A stretch of 64,000 bases of DNA from Lantana camara (lineage: Eukaryota > Streptophyta > Magnoliopsida > Lamiales > Verbenaceae), in contig CM074861.1 of the NCBI GenBank assembly GCA_037501455.1, positions 97,565,001 to 97,629,000 on the forward strand, given 5' to 3'. Below, piece by piece: positions 46,636-64,000 of this stretch. The notes under the pieces are model-generated. The model made no database searches and was not told the DNA's origin. It was given only the letters and a program-made list of their open reading frames with translations. Made by a program: the position numbers and the translations under genes. The first letter of the stretch is position 1. Each line of letters starts with the position of its first letter.

Positions 46636-49615
46636 CTTTATATATATATATATATATATATGTATTATTTATGTATATAAAATTTAATATTTGGAAAAGG
46701 AATCGAAATTATTAGTTTGTGTTTCACTTTAGGGGGTGATGATTCATCACAAAACGACAATGAAGGGGCCTGTGTGGGTCAGTGGGTCCCACTCTGTGTA
46801 CTTTTTTGTTTTTATTATTAATTTTTTAATTGAATTGCAATGAAAACTGCCTGACCAGACTTTCTTTTCCTTTTTTTTCTTAACTTTTTCTCTTTTCTTT
46901 TTCTCTTTTGTTAAAGTCCAACTCCAACTCAACCTTTGAGAAGTACACTTACTCAAACTATTTTACTCATTTTTCTAATGCTCTAACAATAATAAAATAT
47001 GCACACTTTTTTTCTTAGTATTTATAATTTAATTCAATACATGTTGACGTGGGGTTACCAGTATTTTGATTTTGGCCCTACCTTAATGGTTTTAAATTTT
47101 AATACTAAAACATTAGGTTACCTTCCAAATACTCAATTACAAAACATGCATACCAATTTTTTTTTGATCAAAATAGCTCGACTGAACTCATCCAATCATA
47201 TAACATTGGTTCTAGACTTATTTATTTGAGTTTAAATTGAGGCAAACCACTTAATTTTTAGGTGTAAAACTTTTTCTATCGATCATAATTATATTTTCAG
47301 AAATTAAATTGAGGAGATGATGCTCCAATTCAAGACAAGAAAATATCTTTGGACTCATCGAGTATTTACAAAATTATTTATTTTTTTTAGTAGCAACAGA
47401 AATTAAAAAAAAAAAAATAGGTTGAGGGAGATGTCGTCTCGATCCAAGGCAGAGAATGCGTTCAAACTCAGCGAAAACTTATAATATACTTACATTGTAC
47501 TTCATTGCATGAAAACGATGAGAGTTTGAGCCTGCAACTTTGTTAGGATCAAATTTTGTCATACCCCACTTAACCAACTTTATAAAATTTGAACAAAAAA
47601 CTTGTATAAATTAACATAGCACTGAACCGCTAAGCTATTTACATTTCTACCAATAATGCAACAAATATAAAATTCTCCTTCTTTCCCTACACAAAGTTTA
47701 AAGTAAAATTGCCCAATAATATATTACATATCTTTAATTTTATCGTTCAGTTCCTTATTTGAATCATAGAGGATTACAAACAATATCTCATATGTAGTTA
47801 ACGTCAAAGATCCACAAAAAAAAATGTAGTTAGCATTTGTTCTGACTTTAACGTATTTTTTCGAATATTAAACAAATTAATAATTAACAATTAAATAAAT
47901 ATCAAGTTGATTTTTCATATCTAATTTACCATCACAATACCCTTAAAAATATTTCCTACATCTTTAAGTCTTGAAAAGTACATTTTAAATTAAATAAAAA
48001 AAATCAATATACTCTAAATTATTTTACATCTTTTTTAAAGGTAGACATTCATGCAATTAATATTTTGTATTATTATTGTGTGAAAAATCTGCAAAATTGG
48101 TGGGGGCATTTAAGACATTTTACATCAGCATCCCTTTATTCCAAGTAATAGCAGTAACTCGCCGCGTTTCGCCCGCATTGACTCGGGTCAACGTCAAATC
48201 GAAAGTTCCCCTACACCTCACACACCGACAACTAACGGCCGTTAAAACTTTTAACTGTGCCGTTAAATTCAATTTCGTTCTCTGACTGCAGTGCAGGGTT
48301 AGCTTAACCCACGTACATGGTTAGACTTAGAGCATCACGCAAAGGTAACCTGACCATAGTTGGGAGTCATCATCACAGCACATTTGTACTGTTCTTCCCT
48401 TTAAGGGACTGTCCTTCATTTTCTGTCGCTTTTGTGGCTTTGTAAAAAGGTTTTTTTTTTTTTTTTTCCTTTTATTTATTTTTTGGTTGAGGGGTAGTTG
48501 TGGGTGGAGTCGATTTTATTAGTTGTGGGTGGAGTCGATTTTATTTAATTTAATTGTATGTAGATATTTGTGCAATTAATTGAATTTTATTGTTGAAATT
48601 GACATTGTGTTGAAATCTTTATTTATTTTTTAACAATTTTTTTCCAATCGATATATCTTAAACGATGAGATAACGATAACTACAACTAATACTCATTTGG
48701 TTAGATCACATACAAATTAAACTATGGAAAAACTTAAATAGTTAGATAACTGATAGTAGTACGTAATTTAATTATAAGCACGTTAAAGAGGCAGAACAAA
48801 TGAGAGATTAGTATTGCGATTTGCGTACAAGAAAGTAAAATTATTTACATCGAAAAAAATAGTAATGTGTGTGCAGATGCGTTGGTTGATCGGGATCATA
48901 AGATTAGGAGCATCTAAGGTTGTGACTTACTTGATAACGATATTGAGACTTTTGCTACGTGACGTTTTTTATAATTCGTCATCAATTATATATGGTGATT
49001 AATCTAATTACATGTGGATATTTATGCAATTAATTGAATTTAATTGTTGAAATTGACATTGTGTTGAAAATTTTATTGATTTTTCAACAATTTTTAATAA
49101 GAGATGGGACAACCGGGCGATGAATAGTTGTTTCGTTGGATTGTAAACGATTTAAATTGTGGAAAAAATGATAGCGAATAATTCTTTCATTGCATAGTAA
49201 AAAGTAGTTGACAAGAAACTTATAAAAAATTTAAACAGTAAAAAAGTGGCAATGAATAATTCACATGTTGAATTAAACAACTTAAATAGTGAGATGACTA
49301 ACGGATAATAATTTACCTATTGAATAATAAGCATATTAAAGAGGTGGAACAAATGACTTGATAAGATGGATATCAATATTACATGCAAGAAAGTAAGGAA
49401 GCGTTTGGTACCCTTGCAGACTTAATTCAAGTTAATATTATTCGGGCTTATTAAACTATATTAGCCAACACAAGCAATGTTTAATTTCCTGTTTGGTACC
49501 TTATCCGTACAAACGAGGCGGTTTTTGCTAAACTTAATTTTCTGTTTGGTTGGTCATCAGAGAAATCCCCTTTCACCTGGAAAAGCCAAAATTGCCCTTC
49601 AATTATGATGGAAAA
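46636..49615. other. AT-rich intergenic region, no gene recognised
   Basis: It begins with an (AT)n run (46638-46660). It holds a tandem 25 bp duplication (TTGTGGGTGGAGTCGATTTT at about 48497-48545) and a roughly 65 bp segment ('gcaattaattgaatt..attgttgaaattgacattgtgttgaaa') present at about 48563-48613 and again at 49023-49072. The GC-richer patch 48150-48300 might be part of a small gene or promoter, but no protein frame is convincing. GTTTGGTACC-type repeats near 49435-49555 look like part of an old mobile element. Confidence 0.45.
48497..48545. repeat. 25 bp tandem duplication
   Basis: TTGTGGGTGGAGTCGATTTT plus ATT is repeated twice back to back. Confidence 0.75.
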
Positions 49616-50152
49616 GGGGTAGGTTTGTCACATTCATTGCTCAAGTTGAGAATCTAGGGTTTCAGCTCAGAAGAAGAGGCTGCGATCGTGGCATCGGCGT
49701 CGCTGGTTGAGTTGATAAAGAAACGTGGTCGTCGTTCGTGTAATTTGTGGAAGGTATGTGTTTACTAATTCCTGGGATGTATGTGTAGTTCATTGTTTTC
49801 TGCATCTGAGCTAAAAGTTTCCAAGTCGTCTGGCAGGAGGCCAATTTATTTGTGGATGCTTTCCGTTTATGATGCCTGAATTTATATTGTGTTATTCGAG
49901 TTGTACATGACCTCATCCCCGGGATTTAATTTTTGCAGTGAGGCCTATATGCATATTAGTATGAATGACTTGCACTGTAGGTGATTCGTCAATTTTTCCA
50001 TCATATTTACAATCCAGCAAGTACATTTTTTTTACTTGACAATGGCCTTGGTGGTTGTCCAAGGCAGTGCGCAGATTGCCCTCTTATGAACCTGCACTTG
50101 TTTCCAAACTAGCTTCAGTTGATTTCCGTTCCGTTGTGCAGGTTGCCAAGTT
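49616..50152 (+). promoter_or_regulatory. 5' leader of the GRF zinc-finger gene, with intron
   Basis: A non-coding exon ends at TGTGGAAG|GTATGTG (donor at 49754). The acceptor CCGTTGTGCAG lies just before 50142, 11 bp upstream of the ATG. The upstream part (49620-49753) is GC-richer than its surroundings, as expected for a leader. Confidence 0.45.
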
Positions 50153-50617
50153 ATGGGCTTTCTTGCAGCACCACAATGTCCGAAAGGACATGGAGAGATG
50201 ATCCTCCGAACATCTCAGTCAATTAAGAATCCTGGGAGGATGTACTACATCTGCCCTCTGGAATTGAAGCATGAAGGGTTCTTTATGTGGTGGGATGTGT
50301 ATCAAAAGAGTTGTGGTCGGCCGTATTCCAGCGATACAAACTCAGCAAACTGCTCTACAACAGACTCTAAGAAGCATGGAACAAGGCGTAACATTGGAGA
50401 TGACAATATGTCTAGTACATTCCCCTGTCCGTCCGGCTTACATACAGATCAGTTACGCGGCATGTCGACCTCCGATTTAGGAGGATGGGCAAACCAGAGC
50501 TGGGAGATGGATAGAGGTCGTTTTCTCGTACCTGCTGTTCATGTTTACGTATTCTCCTATGCTGTTGTATTGTTGGTTGGTATTGTTTTGGGCTTTATAA
50601 TTGCTCGTGCAATCTGA
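50153..50617 (+). CDS. small GRF-type zinc-finger protein with C-terminal membrane segment
   Basis: 154 aa. Residues about 8-50 fit a zf-GRF finger: CPKGHGEMILRTS, then NPGRMYYICPL and FFMWWDVY (the 'NPGR.YY.CP' and aromatic WD features). A Ser/Asn-rich linker follows, then a hydrophobic stretch at about 128-152 (VYVFSYAVVLLVGIVLGFII) that should anchor the protein in a membrane. GRF fingers bind single-stranded nucleic acid in some proteins (family knowledge); the role of these small plant membrane forms is unknown to me. It is followed by three small two-exon genes of another family. The fourth zinc ligand of the finger is not obvious (KHEGFF where many have a Cys). Confidence 0.7.
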   Translation: MGFLAAPQCPKGHGEMILRTSQSIKNPGRMYYICPLELKHEGFFMWWDVYQKSCGRPYSSDTNSANCSTTDSKKHGTRRNIGDDNMSSTFPCPSGLHTDQLRGMSTSDLGGWANQSWEMDRGRFLVPAVHVYVFSYAVVLLVGIVLGFIIARAI

Positions 50618-51008
50618 TGTGTACTATGTGTGTTTTAAGTTATTTAGGATGTACGTGTGGGCATTAGTATGAATTTTTATTTTGCGACCAATGTGATGTG
50701 GATCTGTATAAATTTGTCCCGTTTCAATTATGCCATATTCTGTTCATTCATACAACAACAGCTAGGTGTGGTTATTGATCTGTTTGGGTGACTGTTTTTG
50801 ATAAGACTATGGAGTGCCCCTGTCTGTTACATGTCACATGCAGAACAGTGAAATTCCCTTGGCCTAAGCATACGTTCCTTTGCAAAGTTTTTCTATATAT
50901 TGCCTGTTGTCATGGTGTAGGGGAGGCATACCGCACATTACTTGGAAAACTAGTCACTTTTAGTGCTTCATCACTTTGAGGTAAATTGTGCACAAAGTTT
51001 TCCTAGCT

Positions 51009-51537
51009 ATGTCACGGCACTCTGTCGAACAACTGGCAGAAATTTACAGACAAACACAGTGCTTTTACAAAAATGGTTGGTCAAGCACACATGGCTCTGT
51101 TTTCATAGCATTGCTTGAATGTGAAGCCCGAAGGGGACGTGGCCAATGGCCGAAATTGAACCATGATGTTGTTCGTGGTCTAACCAACGTACTGAATAAC
51201 CTCTTTGGGTTGTCTCATGATCAAAAATACTATCTGCGTCGGCTGTCCGTGTTGCAAAAGCGATTTCACACCTTTGATTATTTGAAATCGTTATCGGGTG
51301 TCAGTCAATCTGAGGACGAGGGTGTTTTGAATGTCCCTCCGTGTACGTGGGATCAAATCCGTCAGCAGGTATTATTTCCAGCTCGGTGGTGTTATATAAT
51401 TTGATATACGGAATTGTGGTCTTTTAATGCGGTCTGTATTTGCACATTTGCAGGGAAATTATCATTGCTTCTGGTACTATCACGACGACGAGCCGACTTG
51501 GAATTCACTTGTGCGCATATTCGGTCCACCTATGTAG
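51009..51537 (+). CDS. small two-exon Myb/SANT-like-type protein, paralogue A
   Basis: Exons 51009-51368 and 51454-51537, GT..AG, phase 0, giving 147 aa. The ATG at 51009 (MSRHSVEQLAEIY) is the first in frame. Features: a helical segment (FIALLECEARRGRGQWPKLN), VVRGLTNVLNNLFGLSHDQ, LRRLSVLQKRFHTFDYL, a Trp (CTWDQIRQQ) at the exon end, and exon 2 with WYYHDDEPTWNSLVRIFGPP. The pattern 'long helical repeat, W..., then a short exon with ...L..IFG' recalls plant Myb/SANT-like (Myb_DNA-bind_3) proteins; this assignment is tentative. The intron position and phase match paralogues B (disrupted) and C, about 1 and 12 kb further on. Confidence 0.55.
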
Positions 51538-52012
51538 CAGCATATAATCTGGTGGCAGCAGTTACGTCGAATTCAATTGTCGTTGCTTGATCTTTTCGTC
51601 TGTATAATATGTTTACCATGAATTGGTGGATTTTGTGTTGAGTAATGTACAATGTTTTTTGCCCCTACTGTTATGACCAATATGTTGTAAATTAAGTATA
51701 AGTTCGATATATTTTTTTGGGTTTTTCTTTAGAAAGGTTTTGGTTTGCACTTATTGACAGCATAGAGGAAGCCACAAAATGGAAAGTTGAAATCTGGAAC
51801 TCCATTTACAATAACCTCAGTGATACAGAGACAATTTATTCAATATGCTCAGATTAAGCCACACTAACTAGGGGTCTGGCGTGCATGCAACATTGTAAGG
51901 AATTATTCAAATTGAAACTAACACATTACAAGAGAATGAAGATTACTAACCATAAACACTTTCCAAACATTGCATAGCCATGGACTTAACAAAGGAAACA
52001 GTGTCCCGGCGG
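51538..52012. other. 3' flanks between paralogue A and the far end of paralogue B
   Basis: Non-coding by eye. It probably contains the convergent 3' UTRs of paralogue A (plus) and of paralogue B (minus), whose stop codon is at 52013-52015. Confidence 0.5.
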
Positions 52013-52119
52013 CTAGGGGATATCTTCATCAGAGTCCGAGTACATTTCCGGGTCGACAACCAAAGAGGGGGCATCATTTGGAAAGTTGGGAAACATTCTT
52101 TTCCTAAAAATTTCATGTA

Positions 52120-52124
52120 GTTCA
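52120..52124. repeat. target-site duplication GTTCA of the Tekay element (left copy)
   Basis: GTTCA here and at 62089-62093 flank the 9.96 kb element exactly. A 5 bp duplication is standard for Ty3/gypsy integrases. Confidence 0.93.
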
Positions 52125-54751
52125 TGTAGCACCCACACGTAGGGCCACATCCCCCGCACCATAATCCGAACCCGAATACGAAATGGAATGTCCGCACCCG
52201 AATCCGAATCATAGCGAACGGGAGACCAAACACACACTCTAGGCTAGGCGGAGCTAAACCAAACGGAAACAGAGTGCGCAGAAGCGAATAAATAAAAGCA
52301 ACAAGCAAAAACATCACATATATATATATGTATAGGTACCAACACATCCTATACAAAAGCCATCCCGGCTCGAACAAAATAGTGTATAAGTATATACAAA
52401 TCATAACTATACAACTACAAAATAATAAAGTGCAGGTATGTAAATGCACCTAACGAAACCTAGACCGACAAGTGTATAAAGCAGACACACTTCTCCGCCT
52501 AGCTCACGCTCCCAAAACCTGCAACTAAAAGAGTAAACGAGGAGTCAGTCAACTGACTGAGTGAGGGGGCTAACGCACACCCACACCCTACCTATATATA
52601 GAGCAGAGCACAAAGCAAATGGCGAAACTATGAACCGGAATAGGTTTTACAAACTAAAACTTTCCAAAACAAATACATATACTTTAAAACCTTTCATAAA
52701 CACTATCCCGATTCATACTTCTCAAACATACATAACAAAACATAATGCTCGGCGAGAACGAGCTTCCAACCTTTACTCCTCAGAACAAACAAAACGGAAA
52801 TCATACACTCTCCTCTACACCAATGATGGAGGAGCCACCGGCGGCCCTAACCATCCAGACATATACAGACTCACGAGGGGTAGCGAGCCCACATCGTGCC
52901 CTCCCCGGTTTTTACGCCGAAGGCATCGAAATATCACACCTTCCCAAACTCCCAGGGGTCGCGTGTGATATATCGGATGGAGACTACGCACAGGCCGAAC
53001 CTCGACGGCCCGAACCGTCCCGCGGGTTCCTTACCCGTAGCTCCTTGGATCCACACATACAAATCATATCATATCAAATGCCAAATCTTTCATGGCAATC
53101 TCGCTAACAGAATTTGTAAAGCCTTTTCCAAAACATAGCTTACATAAGCTTATTTAATATCTTTTCCAAAACAAAGTTGTTCACAAGATCATAAACGTAT
53201 TCTAATCAACACGTACATATCTATATATATAATATATAGTCACATGCACGGCCGGAAAACATCACATAAGGCTTTAGGTCGCTTAGCTAATAAAATTCCT
53301 AAACCTCACCTTGTGCGTGACAAAAATATGAGCAGACGTGAACAACCTACGCCTCGGGCTCGTCAACTGGAACCTCCTCTGAAAAGAAAACACGAAAGCC
53401 CAAGACTTAGACTCTATATGAACCAAAGAAGACGCCCGGCAAAATGCATGATTCACGTTCATAGATAAAATGTCCCAATTAGGTCATATAATTCACAAAT
53501 CATAGCATAACATAATTATTTACAATCCATTATGCAAAACAATCAAATTATAACAATTAATATGCAAAAGAAAAGCATTTAAAATCATACAATTGCATAA
53601 ACAAGGCAAAGAGAAAAAGTGGCAGAATCCACCCCCATGGATTTTTCCAAAGAGAAAAATCCATCCTCGCGGATTTTTCCAGAGCTACTGCCTCAAATCC
53701 ACCCCCATGGATTTTTCCAAAGGGAAAAATCCACCCTCGCGGATTTGACCCAGTAGAAGGGTTCCGGCCATGGGAACGGTCGTTCCCGTTCCCAGTACAA
53801 ACTGGGAACGGTCGTTCCCACTCTCGGCATGAACAGTAATTGGCCTGGGAACGGTCGTTCCCAGTTTGAAACTGGGCGGGAACGGCCGTTCCGGCCTGGT
53901 TCGAAAGCTGGAGCAGAAAATTTTTACAGAAAACAGGGGAAGCTCGTTTGTGAGCCAAAAATGGCCAAAATTCAACCCTTAAAATTGCCACAACTTCTCA
54001 AAATGCACAAACAATACACATAAATCATGCTTGACATATAAACACTCAAATAACTCAAGAAAACGGAATTAAAATGCATGATCAAGGAAATGAAATTTTC
54101 AAGCAAAAATCATGATCATTCATAAATACTCAACCAACCATGGATTAAATGCAATAAATGCAACACATACAACATATACAACTCATAAATGAAGCTAGTA
54201 ATCAAATACATCAAGCAAAGGACAAGTATCCAAGTTTTTCATGAAACCCTTACTATTCACGTAGGGAAGCAAAGGCATGCAAAACTCACTCCAAACTCAG
54301 AAATTAAACCATAGAAACGACGAGCACGACTAGGGGATTCCGAAACATACCTAAGTTCGAGAAAAGACGAAGAAACGAGAGAGATATTAGCTTGGGAAGT
54401 TGGATGATCAAACTTGGGGTTTTGGCTCAAGCTTGGACAAGGGCTGCTGCTGTTGTTTCACGTAAGAAAGGAGAAAGGAAGAATGGTTCAGCCTTTAAGG
54501 GCTGGACCGGTTCGGTTCACGGGTTCGGTTCAAGGTTCCCGGTTCAAGTTGGTTCGGTTCAACAAATACAGGTTCAAATAAGGCCAACTCAAATTAAAAC
54601 GAATAAATTTCATGCAACATGCATTCAAATAAATTCATATAAATTCATATAAGTTCAAATAATTCATATAAGTCGTAAACAATTAATCCAAAACGCAAAT
54701 ATTGATAAATCACATAATTTACCTGTACCGACTGTGAGTCGGGGTGTTACA
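52125..54751 (-). repeat. Tekay element 3' LTR
   Basis: 2627 bp. On the plus strand it runs TGTAGCACCCACACG...GGGGTGTTACA. A TATA-like CTATATATAG is at 52592-52601. The palindrome clusters are at 53633-53741 (AATCCACCCCCATGGATT type) and 53772-53892 (GGGAACGGTCGTTCCC type). Confidence 0.95.
53633..53892. repeat. palindrome arrays in the Tekay LTR
   Basis: Two adjoining sets. First, four AAATCCAC/T...GGATTT imperfect dyads (about 53635, 53667, 53697 and 53729). Second, four GGGAAC..GTTCCC dyads at 53772-53787, 53804-53819, 53847-53862 (inside the 20 bp CTGGGAACGGTCGTTCCCAG) and 53879-53892. Both sets recur in the 5' LTR at about 60965-61229. They lie at about 60-67% of the LTR counted from its plus-strand left end, i.e. 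in U3 upstream of the TATA box. Confidence 0.85.
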
Positions 54752-54765
54752 ACCTCCCCCCCTTC
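54752..54765 (-). other. Tekay polypurine tract
   Basis: AAGGGGGGGGAGGT on the minus strand directly abuts the 3' LTR. Confidence 0.9.
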
Positions 54766-54798
54766 GGAGAACCTGGTCCCCAGGTTAACTGTCTGACC

Positions 54799-57700
54799 TC
54801 AGAACAACTCTGGGTACAACTGTCTCATCTTCTCCTCAGTCTCCCAAGTAGACTCTTCAGATTTCTGATCTCTCCAAAGAACTCGGACCAAGGGAATCTG
54901 TTTATTCCTCAATACTTGTATCTTCCGGTCTTGAATCTCAACCGGGTGCCTTACTATTGTCAAATCCGTCTCAAGTTGTACCTCTTCCATAGGGAGAATA
55001 GTTGATTCTTCGGGATAAAATTTCCTGAGCTGCGAGACGTGAAACACATTATGTATCCCGGTCAATCTAGGCGGTAGGTCCAACCTATACGCCACTTCTC
55101 CAATTCTCTCAAGGATTTCAAAAGGTCCAAGGTATCTCGGGTTAAGCTTCCCACCTCGACCTATTCGAGAAAATCCCTTCCTCGGAGATGCTTTCAAGAA
55201 CACCTTATCTCCGACTTCAAACTCAAGGGGCCTTCTCCTCTTATCTGCATAGCTCTTCTGACGGTCCTGAGCTGCCTTCATTCTCTGCTGAATCAACTTA
55301 ACCTTAGCAGTGGTCTTATCCAATCTCTCTCGAGGTGTTGCTCTTTCAAGCTTATTCTCCTCTGTCCACCGCCAATCTTCCATATCCCAAAATAGAGGCG
55401 ATCTACACCTCCTTCCATATAGTGCCTCGTAGGGAGCCATACCAATAGAAGTCTGAAAACTGTTGTTATAGGCAAACTCAACCAGAGCTAAATGCTTGTC
55501 CCACTTTTCCTGGAAATCCAAAGCACACGCCCTCAACAAATCCTCTAAATACTTAATCAGTCTCTCTGATTGTCCATCTGTCTGAGGATGAAAAGCGGTG
55601 CTGAAATTAAGCCTCGTGCCCAACCTACTCTGAAGATCCTGCCAAAACTTAGCTGTGAACCTCGGATCACGATCTGAGACAATGCTAGCAGGCGCCCCAT
55701 GAAGTCTCACAATCTCATTACAATACAATTCGGCCAACTTCGGAGTCTTGTAAGACATCTTCACCTTGAGAAAATGAGCAGACTTGGTCAATCGGTCGAC
55801 TATCACCCAAATTCCATCATAACCTCCTCTTGATCTTGGCAAGCCGGACACGAAGTCCATAGTCACTTGCTCCCACTTCCATTCAGGAATCGGAAGTGGT
55901 TGGAGAGTTCCTCCCGGTTTCTGGTGTTCTGCCTTCACCACTTGGCACGTGAGACACCGCTTCACAAAGTTCGCGACATCTCTCTTCATGCCATTCCACC
56001 AGAAGTATTCCTTCAAATCTCGGTACATCTTCGTACCACCGGGGTGAATGGAATATCCAGAACGGTGCCCTTCCTCAAGTATTAACCTCTTGAGGTCTTC
56101 TGGGACACAAACCCTGGTCTTGAACCTGAACAAACCGGAATCATCAAACCCAAACTTCGTCTCGGGGTCTATCCTAGACCGAACCACTAATCTCTGAATC
56201 TCTGCATCCGAAGCCTGAGAATCCAACAACCTCTGTTTCAAATCCGGCTGAACTGAGATGTTAGCTAACCGAGCCACTGAAACCAAAACTGTCGAATCCT
56301 GTCCTGAAGACCCTGCACCCAAACCTGAAACACTTGCTTTCCTGCTCAAAGCATCTGCTACGACATTGGCCTTGCCCGGATGATACTGAATCGTGCAGTC
56401 ATAATCCTCTAAGAATTCCATCCAACGCCTCTGTCTATTGTTAAGCTCCTTCTGAGTAAAAAGATACTTGAGGCTCTTATGATCCGTGAATATCTCAAAA
56501 GTCGTCCCATAGAGGTAATGACGCCACTTCCTCAAAGCAAACACAACCGCTGCAAGCTCAAGATCATGAGTGGGGTAGTTCTTCTCGTGTTCCTTCAACT
56601 TCCTAGAAGCATAGGCCACCACTCGGCCATTTTGCATCAATACACATCCGAGTCCTTCCTTAGAAGCATCTGCAAAAACTGAATAGCCCTCGGATCCCTC
56701 GGGTAGGGTAAGAACTGGTGCTGAAGTTAATCTTTCCTTCAAAGCTTGGAAACTTCTCTCGCACCCATCATCCCACTCATACTTCACCTCCTTTTTGGTT
56801 AATCGAGTCAACGGGCAAGCAATCTTGGAAAAGTCCTTCACAAATCTCCTATAGTAACCCGCTAACCCGAGAAAACTTCTTATCTCGGAGGCATTCTTCG
56901 GTCTTTCCCACTGAACCACGGTCTCGATCTTGGAAGGATCAACTTCAATCCCCTCACCTGAAATTATGTGACCCAGAAATGACACTCTGTCGAGCCAGAA
57001 CTCGCACTTGCTAAATTTGGCATAAAGCTTGTGCTCTCTAAGGGTCTCCAACACAATCCTGAGATGCGATGCGTGCTCTTCTGCAGACTTAGAATACACC
57101 AAGATGTCGTCTATGAAAATGACCACAAACTTGTCAAGATACTGTCTAAACACTCGGTGCATCATATCCATGAACACGGCTGGAGCGTTAGTTAACCCAA
57201 ACGGCATCACTACAAACTCGAAGTGTCCATAACGGGTATTGAACGCAGTCTTAGAGATATCCTCTTCCCGAATACGAAGTTGGTAATACCCTTGCCTCAA
57301 ATCTAACTTAGAGTACACCTGCGACCCTTGCAAGATGTCAAACAACTCTTCGATATGAGGTAAAGGATACTTATTCTTCACTGTCATCCGGTTCAACTCG
57401 CGGTAGTCTATACACATCCTCAAAGTCCCATCCTTCTTCTTCACAAATAACACAGGAGCACCCCACGGGGATGTACTCGGACGGATGTAACCGCAAGTCA
57501 AAAGCTCATCCAGCTGAGTTTTCAACTCCTTCAACTCAGCAGGAGCCATCCGATACGGTGTCTTAGAGAAAGGCTCAGCTCCAGGATAAAGGTCGACTAC
57601 AAACTCGATGTCCCTATCAGGTGGTAAAGAACCCAAATTCTCAGGGAAAACATCGGGAAACTCACTCACGACCTCTGTCTCCTCAAGTTTGGCCTGATCC

Positions 57701-59232
57701 TTCGGTTTATTCAAAAGATAGGCCACAAAACCTGTCGCACCGTCCCGGAGGAGCTTACTCGCTTCCATAAAAGACACAAACGGGCTGGACTTCAACCTCT
57801 CACCCGTAAAGACCACTGTCCCCAACAAAACCTTCTTCTCATGACAGTCCAACTGAGCTCGGTATCTGAAGAGAAAATCCATACCAAGGATAACCTCATA
57901 CTTCTTCAACGGTAGAACTATCAAGTCTGCAGGAAAAACTCGGCCCTCAAACACTACCGGACACTCCCTGAACACCCTGTCAGCTTCCACAGATCCTCCC
58001 AAAGGAGTATTCACCACATACACATGCGCAGATAATTCATCAAGTAAAGGCAAGGAAGCAACAATATCCCGGGAAATAAATGAATGCGTAGCCCCGGGAT
58101 CAAACAATGCATGTAGTGATATGCCATGAATGTTTATTGTACCTTCTATCACGGCAGTCGGGTCGACATCAGCAGCTTCCTCCTCTCCCTCCAAAGCAAA
58201 CACGCGAGCCTGCACAACCGGTCTCCTATTCGGGCAAGCATCAATCAAGTGATCAGAAGACCCGCACGCATAGCATTTACCCTGAAGCTTCCAACACCTC
58301 TCCACCGGATGTCTCCCCTGACAATAAGAACAAACGGATGGTCCCTGAGCTGGAGCCGGTCGAGCTGGAATAGCAGGAGGTGCCACGGGACCGGTAATAC
58401 GGGGCTTCTTGTTCCCTAAACCCTGGGGACGAAAAGCCGGTGGAACAGGAGCTCGTGGAGCATAAGAAATGGGCCTCTTACCCAATCCAGAACCTGATCC
58501 CGATCCTCGAGTCGAAGAGAAAGGCGGAGGCTTCAACCGAGCCATTTGGGCCTCAACTTGAATTGCCCTCTTTGTAACCTTGGCCCAAGTACTCACGTTG
58601 ACAGCCTGTAAAGCTTCTTGAATATCCCGACGAAGTCCATGAAGAAACTTTCGGGCCTTATGATCGTCATGGTCGGTGATGTGAGTAGCATAAGGAGCTA
58701 ACCTCTCGAACTCCAAAATATAATCCTCCACCGTCCGGTTGCCTTGCCTCAAATTGGAGAACTCTTGGAGGCGACGTTCTTGTGCACTATGAGGGATATA
58801 TTTCTCATGGAATTCCTGCACAAACGTCTCCCAATTGAATTCCATTCCCGTTCTCTCAAGCCTGGACCTCACACTCCTGAGCCAAATAGCCGCTGGCCCT
58901 TGAATAATACGCCCGGTGCAAACAGCCTTGTCCTGAGAAGTCCCTGGACATATCTCCCAAATACCTCGAATCTCAGACAACCACTCTTCCGCCTTGATAT
59001 CATCACCTCCATACCACTTTGGAGGGTTGTTGTTCCGGAAGTCCCTATACACAGCGGAAATATCTTGTCCTTCACCCGGATTTGCATTACCCCTTTGATT
59101 TTGTTGGAGTTGATTGAGTAGGGCTTGGACAATATTCTCCGCATTCATAGGTGGTGGCGGAGGTGCATTCTGTGGAGCCGGTTCATTCAAATCAGGGGTT
59201 CGTTCACGGTTGTTATGTCTCCTTGGAGGCAT
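54799..59232 (-). CDS. Ty3/gypsy Tekay-type gag-pol polyprotein
   Basis: One intact frame. I place the start at MPPRRHNN (59232), giving 1477 aa; a further 21 codons upstream are open. Order: gag (about 50-290), CCHC knuckle [14 protein letters not shown] (near 320), protease [10 protein letters not shown] (near 375; D-P-G instead of D-S/T-G), RT ([10 protein letters not shown] near 620, FIDDILVYS near 705), RNase H ([11 protein letters not shown] near 847, DHKSLKYL), integrase zinc finger (H..H..CLTCQ, about 1060-1100), D-D-E core (MDFVSGLP near 1123, SDRDPRF near 1186, E of QSERL near 1215), GPF/Y-like region ([19 protein letters not shown]), and a C-terminal chromodomain-like tail (VRVLWRD...[12 protein letters not shown]). 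No frameshift or stop is present, so it looks autonomous. The chromodomain is thought to steer integration to H3K9-methylated chromatin (family knowledge), yet this copy sits in a gene. Confidence 0.95.
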
Positions 59233-59443
59233 CCTGAAACTCACAAATTCAAGCAATATGGATGCATGTGAATTAGTGTATGAATATGTATACAATTTAA
59301 GAAAATAATCAAGTAATCAAGTAATCAATTAGTCAAGTAATCACATACTCAAATCACACATGCACATAATCAAAAGTCACATTGTCCTAAGCCGTACGAC
59401 CTAGACAGACCCACACGACACTAGAGCCCGGTTTTGCAACCGC

Positions 59444-59455
59444 GCTCTGATACCA
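59444..59455 (-). other. Tekay primer binding site, initiator-Met tRNA type
   Basis: TGGTATCAGAGC on the minus strand, complementary to the 3' end of initiator Met-tRNA. It is separated from the 5' LTR by eight bases, a slightly long gap. Confidence 0.88.
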
Positions 59456-59463
59456 CTTCAGGA

Positions 59464-62088
59464 TGTAGCACCCACACGTAGGGCCACATCCCCCGCACCA
59501 TAATCCGAACCCGAATACGAAATGGAATGTCCGCACCCGAATCCGAATCATAGCGAACGGGAGACCAAACACACACTCTAGGCTAGGCGGAGCTAAACCA
59601 AACGGAAACAGAGTGCGCAGAAGCGAATAAATAAAAGCAACAAGCAAAAACATCACATATATATATGTATAGGTACCAACACATCCTATACAAAAGCCAT
59701 CCCGGCTCGAACAAAATAGTGTATAAGTATATACAAATCATAACTATACAACTACAAAATAATAAAGTGCAGGTATGTAAATGCACCTAACGAAACCTAG
59801 ACCGACAAGTGTATAAAGCAGACACACTTCTCCGCCTAGCTCACGCTCCCAAAACCTGCAACTAAAAGAGTAAACGAGGAGTCAGTCAACTGACTGAGTG
59901 AGGGGGCTAACGCACACCCACACCCTACCTATATATAGAGCAGAGCACAAAGCAAATGGCGAAACTATGAACCGGAATAGGTTTTACAAACTAAAACTTT
60001 CCAAAACAAATACATATACTTTAAAACCTTTCATAAACACTATCCCGATTCATACTTCTCAAACATACATAACAAAACATAATGCTCGGCGAGAACGAGC
60101 TTCCAACCTTTACTCCTCAGAACAAACAAAACGGAAATCATACACTCTCCTCTACACCAATGATGGAGGAGCCACCGGCGGCCCTAACCATCCAGACATA
60201 TACAGACTCACGAGGGGTAGCGAGCCCACATCGTGCCCTCCCCGGTTTTTACGCCGAAGGCATCGAAATATCACACCTTCCCAAACTCCCAGGGGTCGCG
60301 TGTGATATATCGGATGGAGACTACGCACAGGCCGAACCTCGACGGCCCGAACCGTCCCGAGGGTTCGTTACCCGTAGCTCCTTGGATCCACACATACAAA
60401 TCATATCATATCAAATGCCAAATCTTTCATGGCAATCTCGCTAACAGAATTTGTAAAGCCTTTTCCAAAACATAGCTTACATAAGCTTATTTAATATCTT
60501 TTCCAAAACAAAGTTGTTCACAAGATCATAAACGTATTCTAATCAACACGTACATATCTATATATATAATATATAGTCACATGCACGGCCGGAAAACATC
60601 ACATAAGGCTTTAGGTCGCTTAGCTAATAAAATTCCTAAACCTCACCTTGTGCGTGACAAAAATATGAGCAGACGTGAACAACCTACGCCTCGGGCTCGT
60701 CAACTGGAACCTCCTCTGAAAAGAAAACACGAATGCCCAAGACTTAGACTCTATATGAACCAAAGAAGACGCCCGGCAAAATGCATGATTCACGTTCATA
60801 GATAAAATGTCCCAATTAGGTCATATAATTCACAAATCATAGCATAACATAATTATTTACAATCCATTATGCAAAACAATCAAATTATAACAATTAATAT
60901 GCAAAAGAAAAGCATTTAAAATCATACAATTGCATAAACAAGGCAAAGAGAAAAAGTGGCAGAATCCACCCCCATGGATTTTCCCAAAGAGAAAAATCCA
61001 TCCTCGCGGATTTTTCCAGAGCTACTGCCTCAAATCCACCCCCATGGATTTTTCCAAAGGGAAAAATCCACCCTCGCGGATTTGACCCAGTAGAAGGGTT
61101 CCGGCCATGGGAACGACCGTTCCCGTTCCCAGTACAAACTGGGAACGGTCGTTCCCACTCTCGGCATGAACAGTAATTGGCCTGGGAACGGTCGTTCCCA
61201 GTTTGAAACTGGGCGGGAACGGCCGTTCCGGCCTGGTTCGAAAGCTGGAGCAGAAAATTTTTACAGAAAACAGGGGAAGCTCGTTTGTGAGCCAAAAATG
61301 GCCAAAATTCAACCCTTAAAATTGCCACAACTTCTCAAAATGCACAAACAGTACACATAAATCATGCTTGACATATAAACACTCAAATAACTCAAGAAAA
61401 CGGAATTAAAATGCATGATCAAGGAAATGAAATTTTCAAGCAAAAATCATGATCATTCATAAATACTCAACCAACCATGGATTAAATGCAATAAATGCAA
61501 CACATACAACATATACAACTCATAAATGAAGCTAGTAATCAAATACATCAAGCAAAGGACAAGTATCCAAGTTTTTCATGAAACCCTTACTATTCACGTA
61601 GGGAAGCAAAGGCATGCAAAACTCACTCCAAACTCAGAAATTAAACCATAGAAACGACGAGCACGACTAGGGGATTCCGAAACATACCTAAGTTCGAGAA
61701 AAGACGAAGAAACGAGAGAGATATTAGCTTGGGAAGTTGGATGATCAAACTTGGGGTTTTGGCTCAAGCTTGGACAAGGGCTGCTGCTGTTGTTTCACGT
61801 AAGAAAGGAGAAAGGAAGAATGGTTCAGCCTTTAAGGGCTGGACCGGTTCGGTTCACGGGTTCGGTTCAAGGTTCCCGGTTCAAGTTGGTTCGGTTCAAC
61901 AAATACAGGTTCAAATAAGGCCAACTCAAATTAAAACGAATAAATTTCATGCAACATGCATTCAAATAAATTCATATAAATTCATATAAGTTCAAATAAT
62001 TCATATAAGTCGTAAACAATTAATCCAAAACGCAAATATTGATAAATCACATAATTTACCTGTACCGACTGTGAGTCGGGGTGTTACA
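59464..62088 (-). repeat. Tekay element 5' LTR
   Basis: 2625 bp, nearly identical to the 3' LTR. Differences seen include two near 60360-60367 (GAGGGTTCG against GCGGGTTCC), one near 60734, one near 60983, a two-base change near 61116-61117, one near 61351, and a 2 bp shorter (AT)n run near 59660. The TATA-like TATATATAG is at about 59930-59938. Confidence 0.95.
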
Positions 62089-62550
62089 GTTCAGCCCAAT
62101 TTTCAAATCCATGATGTCGAAAGTTAGCTTCGACAGCAGTTTCCTGGTCAAAATAAACAACATACTTCATGAATAGATCGATGGTAAAAAAGAACAAGAC
62201 AAGTTGTGGTTCGTGTAAACCTGTTGTATGTGATGGTTAATATACTGAGGGTCTATTTCAATTCGGTTCTCATCCGCATCGTACATGACCCCTGGGACTT
62301 TCAAGAAATTACGGAACGAGATATACTCTGATCTCAAACTTGTGATCCCCCTTCGCACCCGGTTTTGAGCGATTCCAGTGCGTAATTTGCGTCCCATTTC
62401 ACCTGCTATCATACCACAAGCCCATATAGCTTCGACTTCCGTCACCAGTACATGATTGCCAACATAATCATGAAGCTCTCCAATGAGGATTTGCTTGAAG
62501 CACATCGTGCATGGAAACCTTGGCTGGTTTTGGCCATTGTGTGCATTCAT

Positions 62551-63138
62551 TTTTTTTTTTTTTTTGGATCCACCTCAGGTTATTCAGTTGTATTTGGCAA
62601 TAGTTTTTGTATTCCGTGTTGGTGTTTTTATACATAACTTCCATATAATTGGTCATTTTTGGAATTGGTTTCCAAGGCTGTAAAGTTAACAATGAAGGCA
62701 TGCGTGAACAGGAACATTTATGCTATAACCTTTATTCATGGACCCCTGACCAAAAGAATCTCCATCATTCCATGAAAGACAATACAAGTTCCAACAGGAG
62801 GCCACATAAAGAAAAGAAGTTGGGTGTATCTCATACTATTGGTTGTCAGGAACCTTGACGGATGAAGATATGAGAATCTCATGCTTTTTCTTTTTTATTC
62901 TGCAACTTCCTGAAAGATTCTCCAAAAGATTACTATGTGCGTGCAATAAAGAGGCACGCTAGTTCAATTTGGGGGAACAAAAGCTTGTGCTTCACCATCC
63001 AATCACATATAGCTTTTGTTTTCGATGACACATACTACACATTGCCAAATATATAAATGAAAGGCCAAGCTACTGACAATTACCTATGTAGACTCACATT
63101 TTCAAGCTTCGGAATATACCATCTCAGCTACATCTACC
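62551..63138. promoter_or_regulatory. divergent intergenic region between paralogues B and C
   Basis: 588 bp between head-to-head starts. A poly-T/poly-A run at 62551-62567 lies directly upstream of the B start. No repeat ends or other coding frames are convincing. It probably carries both promoters and leaders. Confidence 0.4.
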
Positions 63139-63741
63139 ATGCCTCGTTCACGACGGGAATGCCGCCCTGTCTTCCTAACTGATATTGAGCCATTTTGTGC
63201 TTGTTCGGAGCGTGTGCTTATTATGGAGCTCTACGAGTTTGCGAGCCAAAACGTTATTATGAGTGAACCTCCAGTTATGGTTGCCGCCGTTGAGGAAATT
63301 GCACGTAACATGAGCCGGCGATTGGATATCGATATATCCCAGAGCGAGGTCAGTGGACACATCATGCAGCTTCGAGAAATATACCGCGAATTCAGAATGT
63401 TTACGTACAAGGTTGGGGTCACGTACCATGGCCGCATTAACGTTGTCCATGTTGATGAGCAATACGTCCGCTACTTCGGTGACCGGGTAATGATTCCCAT
63501 TAACCTTCCAAATCTTCACGTAATGCCCGAATAAGTTTAATTAAAATGTTCATATGTATTTTAACTTCCATGTTTTTTGGTCTCACAGGAGAGTAGGCTG
63601 GATCGTCTTTTTCGGAGTCGTGGGTTCCCTTACTACCATGAACTTCATTACGTATTTCGGTCTTCGAAAGCAGCCCTACTTCCAGGGGAACCGACGACAA
63701 ACTACGTGGATCCGGAGGTCTTTTCCGACAATGAGTACTAA
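63139..63741 (+). CDS. small two-exon Myb/SANT-like-type protein, paralogue C
   Basis: Exons 63139-63486 and 63589-63741, with donor CGG|GTAATG and acceptor TCTCACAG|GAG, phase 0, giving 166 aa. Exon 1 aligns with B (LIMELYEFASQNVIMSE against LIGELHDYVGNHVLVTE; later VHVDEQYVRYF against IEIDPQYINHHI). Exon 2 reads ESRLDRLFRSRGFPYYHELH and ends VDPEVFSDNEY. Without splicing the exon 1 frame stops at 63534. The exon 2 pattern 'F...GFP.Y.EL..VF' resembles the end of Myb/SANT-like domains; the N-terminal half is not recognised. The function is unknown to me. It serves as the intact reference for the broken paralogue B. Confidence 0.65.
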
Positions 63742-64000
63742 ACAAATTCGGACACAACATACTGAGGACACAACAAGTTCGGATTTCATATCTGTGGCGT
63801 TCACTGTTGTTGGTTTCTCTTTAATTATGTCCCATGTATGCAAATATTATTTCCCTTTCCGTGTAGGGAGTCGGTGTTTATGCATCCTATGACTTGTTTG
63901 TCATGAATTTGTAATGATGCTGGACCTTATAGAACTAAGCAAATCTTTTTTATCTTGAACTTGTTTGTCGTAACATTTTCATAAGATAGCCTCACATTCT
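63742..64000 (+). other. 3' flank of paralogue C
   Basis: Probable 3' UTR and downstream sequence. No further gene is visible before the window ends. Confidence 0.45.

Follow-up and report, generated by a model that had tools for sequence, protein, structure and literature searches.

The stretch analysed here (hereafter the window) comprises 64,000 nucleotides of the Lantana camara genome (assembly GCA_037501455.1, contig CM074861.1, positions 97,565,001 to 97,629,000) and contains a long terminal repeat (LTR) retrotransposon lying within the second exon of a small gene, designated B. Gene B is in turn one of six genes of a DNA transposon with the termini and transposase of the PIF/Harbinger type, the right end of which falls 4069 bases beyond the window. 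The retrotransposon and the gene that it splits comprise the following features:

52013..52124, minus strand: gene B exon 2, second part, with the stop
52120..52124: GTTCA copy of the retrotransposon's target-site duplication (TSD)
52125..62088, minus strand: Ty3/chromovirus-like LTR retrotransposon with TG...CA ends, a 5-bp TSD, an LTR pair and reverse transcriptase, RNaseH, integrase and gag domains
52125..54751, minus strand: 3' LTR in the orientation of the element, 99.66% identical to the other LTR
54799..59316, minus strand: gag-pol open reading frame (ORF), open as it stands and recognized by its domain matches
59464..62088, minus strand: 5' LTR in the orientation of the element
62089..62093: second GTTCA copy
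62089..62143, minus strand: gene B exon 2, first part
62221..62550, minus strand: gene 3 (B) exon 1, 110 codons

A retrotransposon in the second exon of gene B

The intron of gene B is bounded by GT and AG, and on the minus strand the broken exon 2 reads GFENWAEL and then runs into a stop built from the first bases of the LTR. With the retrotransposon and one GTTCA removed, the exon continues as HEIFRKRMFPNF...SDSDEDIP up to the stop at 52013, the frame picking up at 52124 and the joined exon amounting to 54 codons. A preliminary description of this DNA had proposed both the split, with resumption of the frame at 52124, and the in-frame stop contributed by the LTR; both are confirmed, as is the GTTCA duplication. 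A 600-base query made of the joined flanks is matched from end to end at C5:29.76M (97.0%), C5:75.417M (96.7%) and C5:88.76M (95.1%, with 9 gap openings), and over 540 columns spanning the junction at C5:75.44M (96.9%). Longer joined flanks recovered three other places over ~2.6 kb with 96.5-97.3% identity across the junction, and a fourth with 1360 columns at 96.7%. Since the joined flanks match other copies across the junction, the continuation of exon 2 is not a matter of chance.

In an alignment of 2628 columns the LTR-homologous blocks 52124-54751 and 59463-62088 differ by 7 mismatches and one gap (99.66% identity), and a global alignment of the LTRs likewise yields 7 substitutions. Because their divergence is 0.27% (7 of 2627), the insertion is recent, as had been concluded from a slightly higher estimate of about 0.3%; at the substitution rates used for dating, 7e-9 and 1.3e-8 per site per year, both of them assumed for this species, the age would be ~0.10-0.19 million years. 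The open frame of the retrotransposon spans 1505 codons and encodes gag, protease, reverse transcriptase, RNaseH and integrase domains in that order, the match of the integrase core (rve) being weak (18.5 bits against a cut-off of 32.6). The earlier designation of the element as a chromovirus agrees with this domain order, but the match to the chromodomain (PF00385, Chromo) at the C-terminus of the integrase (E 1.9e-4, 21.7 bits) falls under the Pfam cut-off of 25.1; the assignment is plausible.

The surrounding transposon and its six genes

The transposon that encloses gene B is delimited, and its remaining genes within the window are placed, as follows (L022 continues the window to the right):

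49394..49396: TAA target duplication, the other copy at L022:4070-4072
49397..64000 and on to L022:4069 (C7:97633069): PIF/Harbinger transposon, with sharp ends common to copies at independent sites
49397..49410, plus strand: left terminal inverted repeat (TIR) GGAAGCGTTTGGTA, 14 bp, pairing with TACCAAACGCTTCC at the right end
50153..50617, plus strand: gene 1 (all or part), encoding a GRF zinc-finger protein whose C-terminus is hydrophobic, open in the window copy, Zn_ribbon_GRF recognized in the L010 copy
51009..51404, plus strand: gene 2 (MybA), Myb/SANT-like, Myb_DNA-bind_3
63139..63486, plus strand: gene 4 (C) exon 1, paralogue of B
63589..63741, plus strand: gene 4 (C) exon 2

The window transposon measures 8704 bp once the retrotransposon and one GTTCA are subtracted. 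On outward extension four copies start to match at 49395-49398; on the right, where two copies are covered to their end, the match stops at 68065-68072 (window numbering, extended into L022). Related copies define similar limits: that on C8 (C8:1.598M) is 8694 bp long, with TIRs GGAACCGTTTGGTA/TACCAAACGGTTCC and a TAA duplication, and that on C2 (C2:41.89M) is 9196 bp long, with a TIR pair differing at one position and a TTA duplication. Complete TIRs together with a TSD are therefore present in three copies, namely the window (TAA), C8 (TAA) and C2 (TTA), while at C5:29.76M the right TIR end is missing and the copies at 88.76M and 75.44M are covered at one end only. The flanks of the window, 29.76M, 75.417M, C8 and C2 copies are unrelated, with no left-left or right-right match and only short or dispersed matches among the five sites.

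Past the end of the window, the transposase gives matches to DDE_Tnp_4 (PF13359) of 49.0 and 33.3 bits on two exons (cut-off 24.8), and ORF1 one to Myb_DNA-bind_3 (PF12776) of 27.2 bits (cut-off 23.6). TIRs within the range of 14-25 bp, a 3-bp TTA/TAA duplication, a DDE_Tnp_4 transposase and a second gene of the Myb/SANT type all characterize PIF/Harbinger elements, but their usual restriction to two protein-coding genes does not hold here, where six are conserved. The element is classified as a variant of PIF/Harbinger because its termini, TSD and transposase place it there; and as gene B belongs to this transposon, the insertion into B is a nesting of one transposable element in another.

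The six genes are arranged as GRF zinc finger (+), MybA (+), B (-), C (+), ORF1 (-) and transposase (-). Order and relative orientation of all six are preserved at C5:29.76M, C5:75.417M, C5:75.44M, C8:1.598M and C2:41.89M; at C5:88.76M the order agrees, with only the last exon of the transposase lying inside the stretch examined and the first two outside it. The C8 and C2 copies are ~75% alike in coding DNA, and each has its own complete termini along with all six genes. The zinc finger of gene 1 is recognized as Zn_ribbon_GRF in the L010 copy (31.1 bits), and MybA matches Myb_DNA-bind_3 with 24.4 bits in that copy and with 21.7 bits, under the cut-off of 23.6, in the window. The C-terminal stretch of the GRF protein is strongly hydrophobic (L010:7840-8046; window 50408-50614) and perhaps forms a membrane anchor, which would be odd for a transposon protein.

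The homology of B with C that had been noticed earlier holds up: the two are ~34% identical in amino acid sequence (29-36% in exon 1 between the window B and six C sequences), profile comparison with hhalign gives a probability of 100, and both have two exons, so that they are paralogues. PF12776 yielded no match to B (exon 1 or both exons together) or to exon 1 of C, and hhalign comparison of B/C with MybA and ORF1 did not establish homology. The structural model of B exon 1 has three helices, a beta hairpin and a further helix (pLDDT, the predicted local distance difference test score, 69.9), a layout which we take to be that expected of a Myb/SANT-like domain. This offers a lead, namely that B and C might be small DNA-binding, Myb-like cofactors acting in transposition or against silencing.

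Copies elsewhere in the assembly and selection on their genes

A query with the gene B region returned 26 matches in the assembly, the window included; as two of these are pieces of one copy, there are at least 24 other copies, of which 15 were read (L002-L008, comprising 7 copies, L034, L035 and L037-L042) and 9 were not. Exon 2 is unbroken at the insertion point in all 15, three of which (L003, L035 and L040) carry stops in it. The insertion may be a segregating presence/absence allele, which the preliminary description considered probable; the empty sites seen here, however, belong to paralogous copies at other places of a single assembly and do not represent the allelic position in further plants. 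The preliminary description had itself pointed to the possibility that the halves of exon 2 derive from different genes; with the joined exon present in 15 of 15 copies examined, among at least 24, this is rejected.

MybA adjoins B in 15 of the 15 copies, and C or a C-like exon is found in 14, the exception being C3:57.63M (L008), where 1.5 kb on each side of the exon-2 match contain only the cross-match of B itself to C. Eight divergent loci were read closely, and six of them (L034, L035 and L039-L042) have as their nearest C-like exon a third relative, with 38-50% identity to C exon 2; L034 additionally has C exon 1 farther out. The positions of this third exon are:

L034:2349-2483, L035:2738-2872, L039:2772-2906, L040:604-705, L041:606-740 and L042:535-669: third B/C-family exon, distinct from C

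The L041 exon has two stops. Given the third relative in some divergent copies, the B/C family seems to duplicate within the transposon.

Ratios of nonsynonymous to synonymous divergence (dN/dS) were calculated by the Nei-Gojobori method, omitting codons that are stops in either copy. In pairs involving the divergent C8 and C2 copies they are 0.25-0.29 for GRF, 0.14-0.24 for MybA and 0.09-0.13 for C, and for B they are 0.11 (window-C8) and 0.28 (C8-C2), the values of B that involve C2 being inflated by a frame change in its exon 1 there. ORF1 gives 0.10 (C8-C2), and the transposase 0.04 and 0.07 in pairs with divergent copies. Since the four extra genes show low dN/dS, they probably help the transposon. 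That six genes travel together with low dN/dS across far-diverged synonymous sites, some of which approach saturation, makes one ask in what way the additional genes serve it.

Interpretation, alternatives and known systems

We hold it to be very probable that a young chromovirus-like retrotransposon sits in gene B of an older, six-gene PIF/Harbinger copy of autonomous type. By homology, the transposase and the Myb/SANT ORF1 of that element would presumably cut and paste it at TAA/TTA. Its other four genes (GRF, MybA, B and C) are read as accessory genes retained by selection between divergent copies. The retrotransposon recently entered gene B of one such copy, leaving a 5-bp target duplication and cutting the gene short at an immediate stop; one gene of one transposon copy is thereby disabled, and unbroken exons persist in copies elsewhere.

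Several observations weigh against parts of this interpretation. The bases outside the TIRs of the C5:75.417M copy are GTA on the left and CTA on the right and do not match. Neither divergent copy is intact: on C8 both MybA and ORF1 contain a single stop, and on C2 the transposase contains one, in addition to the altered frame of B exon 1. Pfam returned no significant hit for B or C, and fold searches with the model of B exon 1 gave weak matches. As regards selection, dS is saturated in four comparisons (B window-C2, ORF1 window-C8, ORF1 window-C2 and transposase window-C2), and the recent copies (window versus 29.76M and 88.76M) give dN/dS from 0.11 to 1.97 with mostly wide intervals, as the few differences between them would lead one to expect. 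The low ratios hence cover the divergent copies, and constraint on the youngest ones is not established.

Of the competing explanations, the one adopted in the preliminary description, that a young retrotransposon broke a small, ordinary gene of the host plant whose paralogue lies close by, would account for the in-frame continuation and for the conservation of the joined exon. However, TIRs, a TSD and a transposase mark the unit in which B lies, this unit recurs at independent sites, and MybA stands next to B in all 15 other copies examined; B and C are both genes of one multicopy PIF/Harbinger transposon, and the host-gene explanation, which we judge highly improbable, is rejected in view of that unit. 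This also suggests caution elsewhere, as small 'host genes' in such regions can be transposon genes. Spread of the six-gene block as a cluster by segmental duplication, with PIF termini by coincidence, is scarcely credible as a general account. It has in its favour that the copies at 75.417M and 75.44M, 22 kb apart, have the same 40 bases of left flank over the segment compared; one such duplication probably exists, and the two copies were counted as one insertion owing to this common flank. Against it, the flanks of five sites have neither left-left nor right-right matches and TAA/TTA duplications occur at three sites, so that it is rejected for the window, 29.76M, 75.417M, C8 and C2 sites.

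A further alternative is a two-gene PIF/Harbinger element that recently captured host genes as passengers (transduplication), these being without function for the element. Such transduplication is on record for PIF elements of grapevine (PMC2528002), and a GRF gene is atypical of PIF. Passengers would be expected to decay, whereas the four extra genes are kept in copies of ~75% similarity, their dN/dS, wherever it could be estimated, lies far under 1, and B and C, at ~34% identity, are old paralogues within the element; we therefore regard recent capture as unlikely.

In its 14-bp TIR, TAA/TTA TSD, multi-exon DDE_Tnp_4 transposase and Myb/SANT ORF1 the nesting host resembles PIF, Ping/Pong, PePIF1 and MtMaster, from which it differs in having six genes over 8.7-9.2 kb. 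The table rows available from PMC6327408 list TIRs of 14-25 bp, elements of 1.5-5.1 kb and at most two ORFs, and the accessible text of PMC9710019 states that all known plant and animal PIF elements have two genes. Pifvine families are given as 5-7.2 kb in PMC2528002, where Pifvine-3 is described as having up to 3.5 kb of extra sequence beyond ORF1 and transposase, mostly similar to the grapevine genome; the Lantana element likewise has extra sequence, but here it consists of four genes common to divergent copies and apparently under selection. According to extracts of PMC2213677, Medicago PIF/Harbinger elements measure between 2.2 kb and 25.3 kb, nested insertions being part of the long ones described, and MtPH-A6-1 contains a 7,555-bp gypsy-like retrotransposon. 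This is the same kind of nesting, in another element family; in the present case the exon of an accessory gene was hit. Nesting of a retrotransposon in PIF/Harbinger is thus already known and ordinary, while the six-gene PIF/Harbinger is new: the literature searched, the coverage of which excluded Repbase and most subscription papers, yielded no PIF/Harbinger for which three or more own genes are described.

As to what the extra genes might do, we conjecture that cofactor or anti-silencing roles are most likely. VANC of the VANDAL Mutator-like elements is a sequence-specific anti-silencing protein, as stated in the part of PMC5735166 available; the VANDAL elements are also plant DNA transposons with a further gene, but belong to another superfamily. 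By this analogy, the present elements could form a distinct PIF/Harbinger lineage in which a selected module (GRF, the second Myb-like protein and the duplicating B/C family) supplies VANC-like, sequence-specific anti-silencing or targeting factors, a proposal that we advance tentatively and with considerable doubt. Were it true, the retrotransposon would have removed an anti-silencing gene from one copy.

Interruptions were also observed in other copies of the transposon. At C5:75.440-75.450M (L020 ~5136 to L021 ~5078) exon 1 of gene B is split independently by a different element of ~10 kb, which has direct repeats of ~2.55 kb that are 99.3% alike and matches the pol region of the window retrotransposon at ~73%. 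At C5:88.74-88.76M (L013 ~793 to L014 ~7354) ~16.5 kb separate ORF1 from the last exon of the transposase; this gap indicates that this copy too is interrupted, and the inserted DNA has a perfect 160-base direct repeat at both ends. In the C5:29.76M copy the first exon of the transposase is broken by ~780 bp (L011 4253-5035), which start with AGGGGTGGGCG, end with CGCCCACCCCT and are accompanied by a short direct duplication. This insert resembles a miniature inverted-repeat transposable element of the hAT type, its TIRs and TSDs being of the sort that we take to be found in hAT elements.

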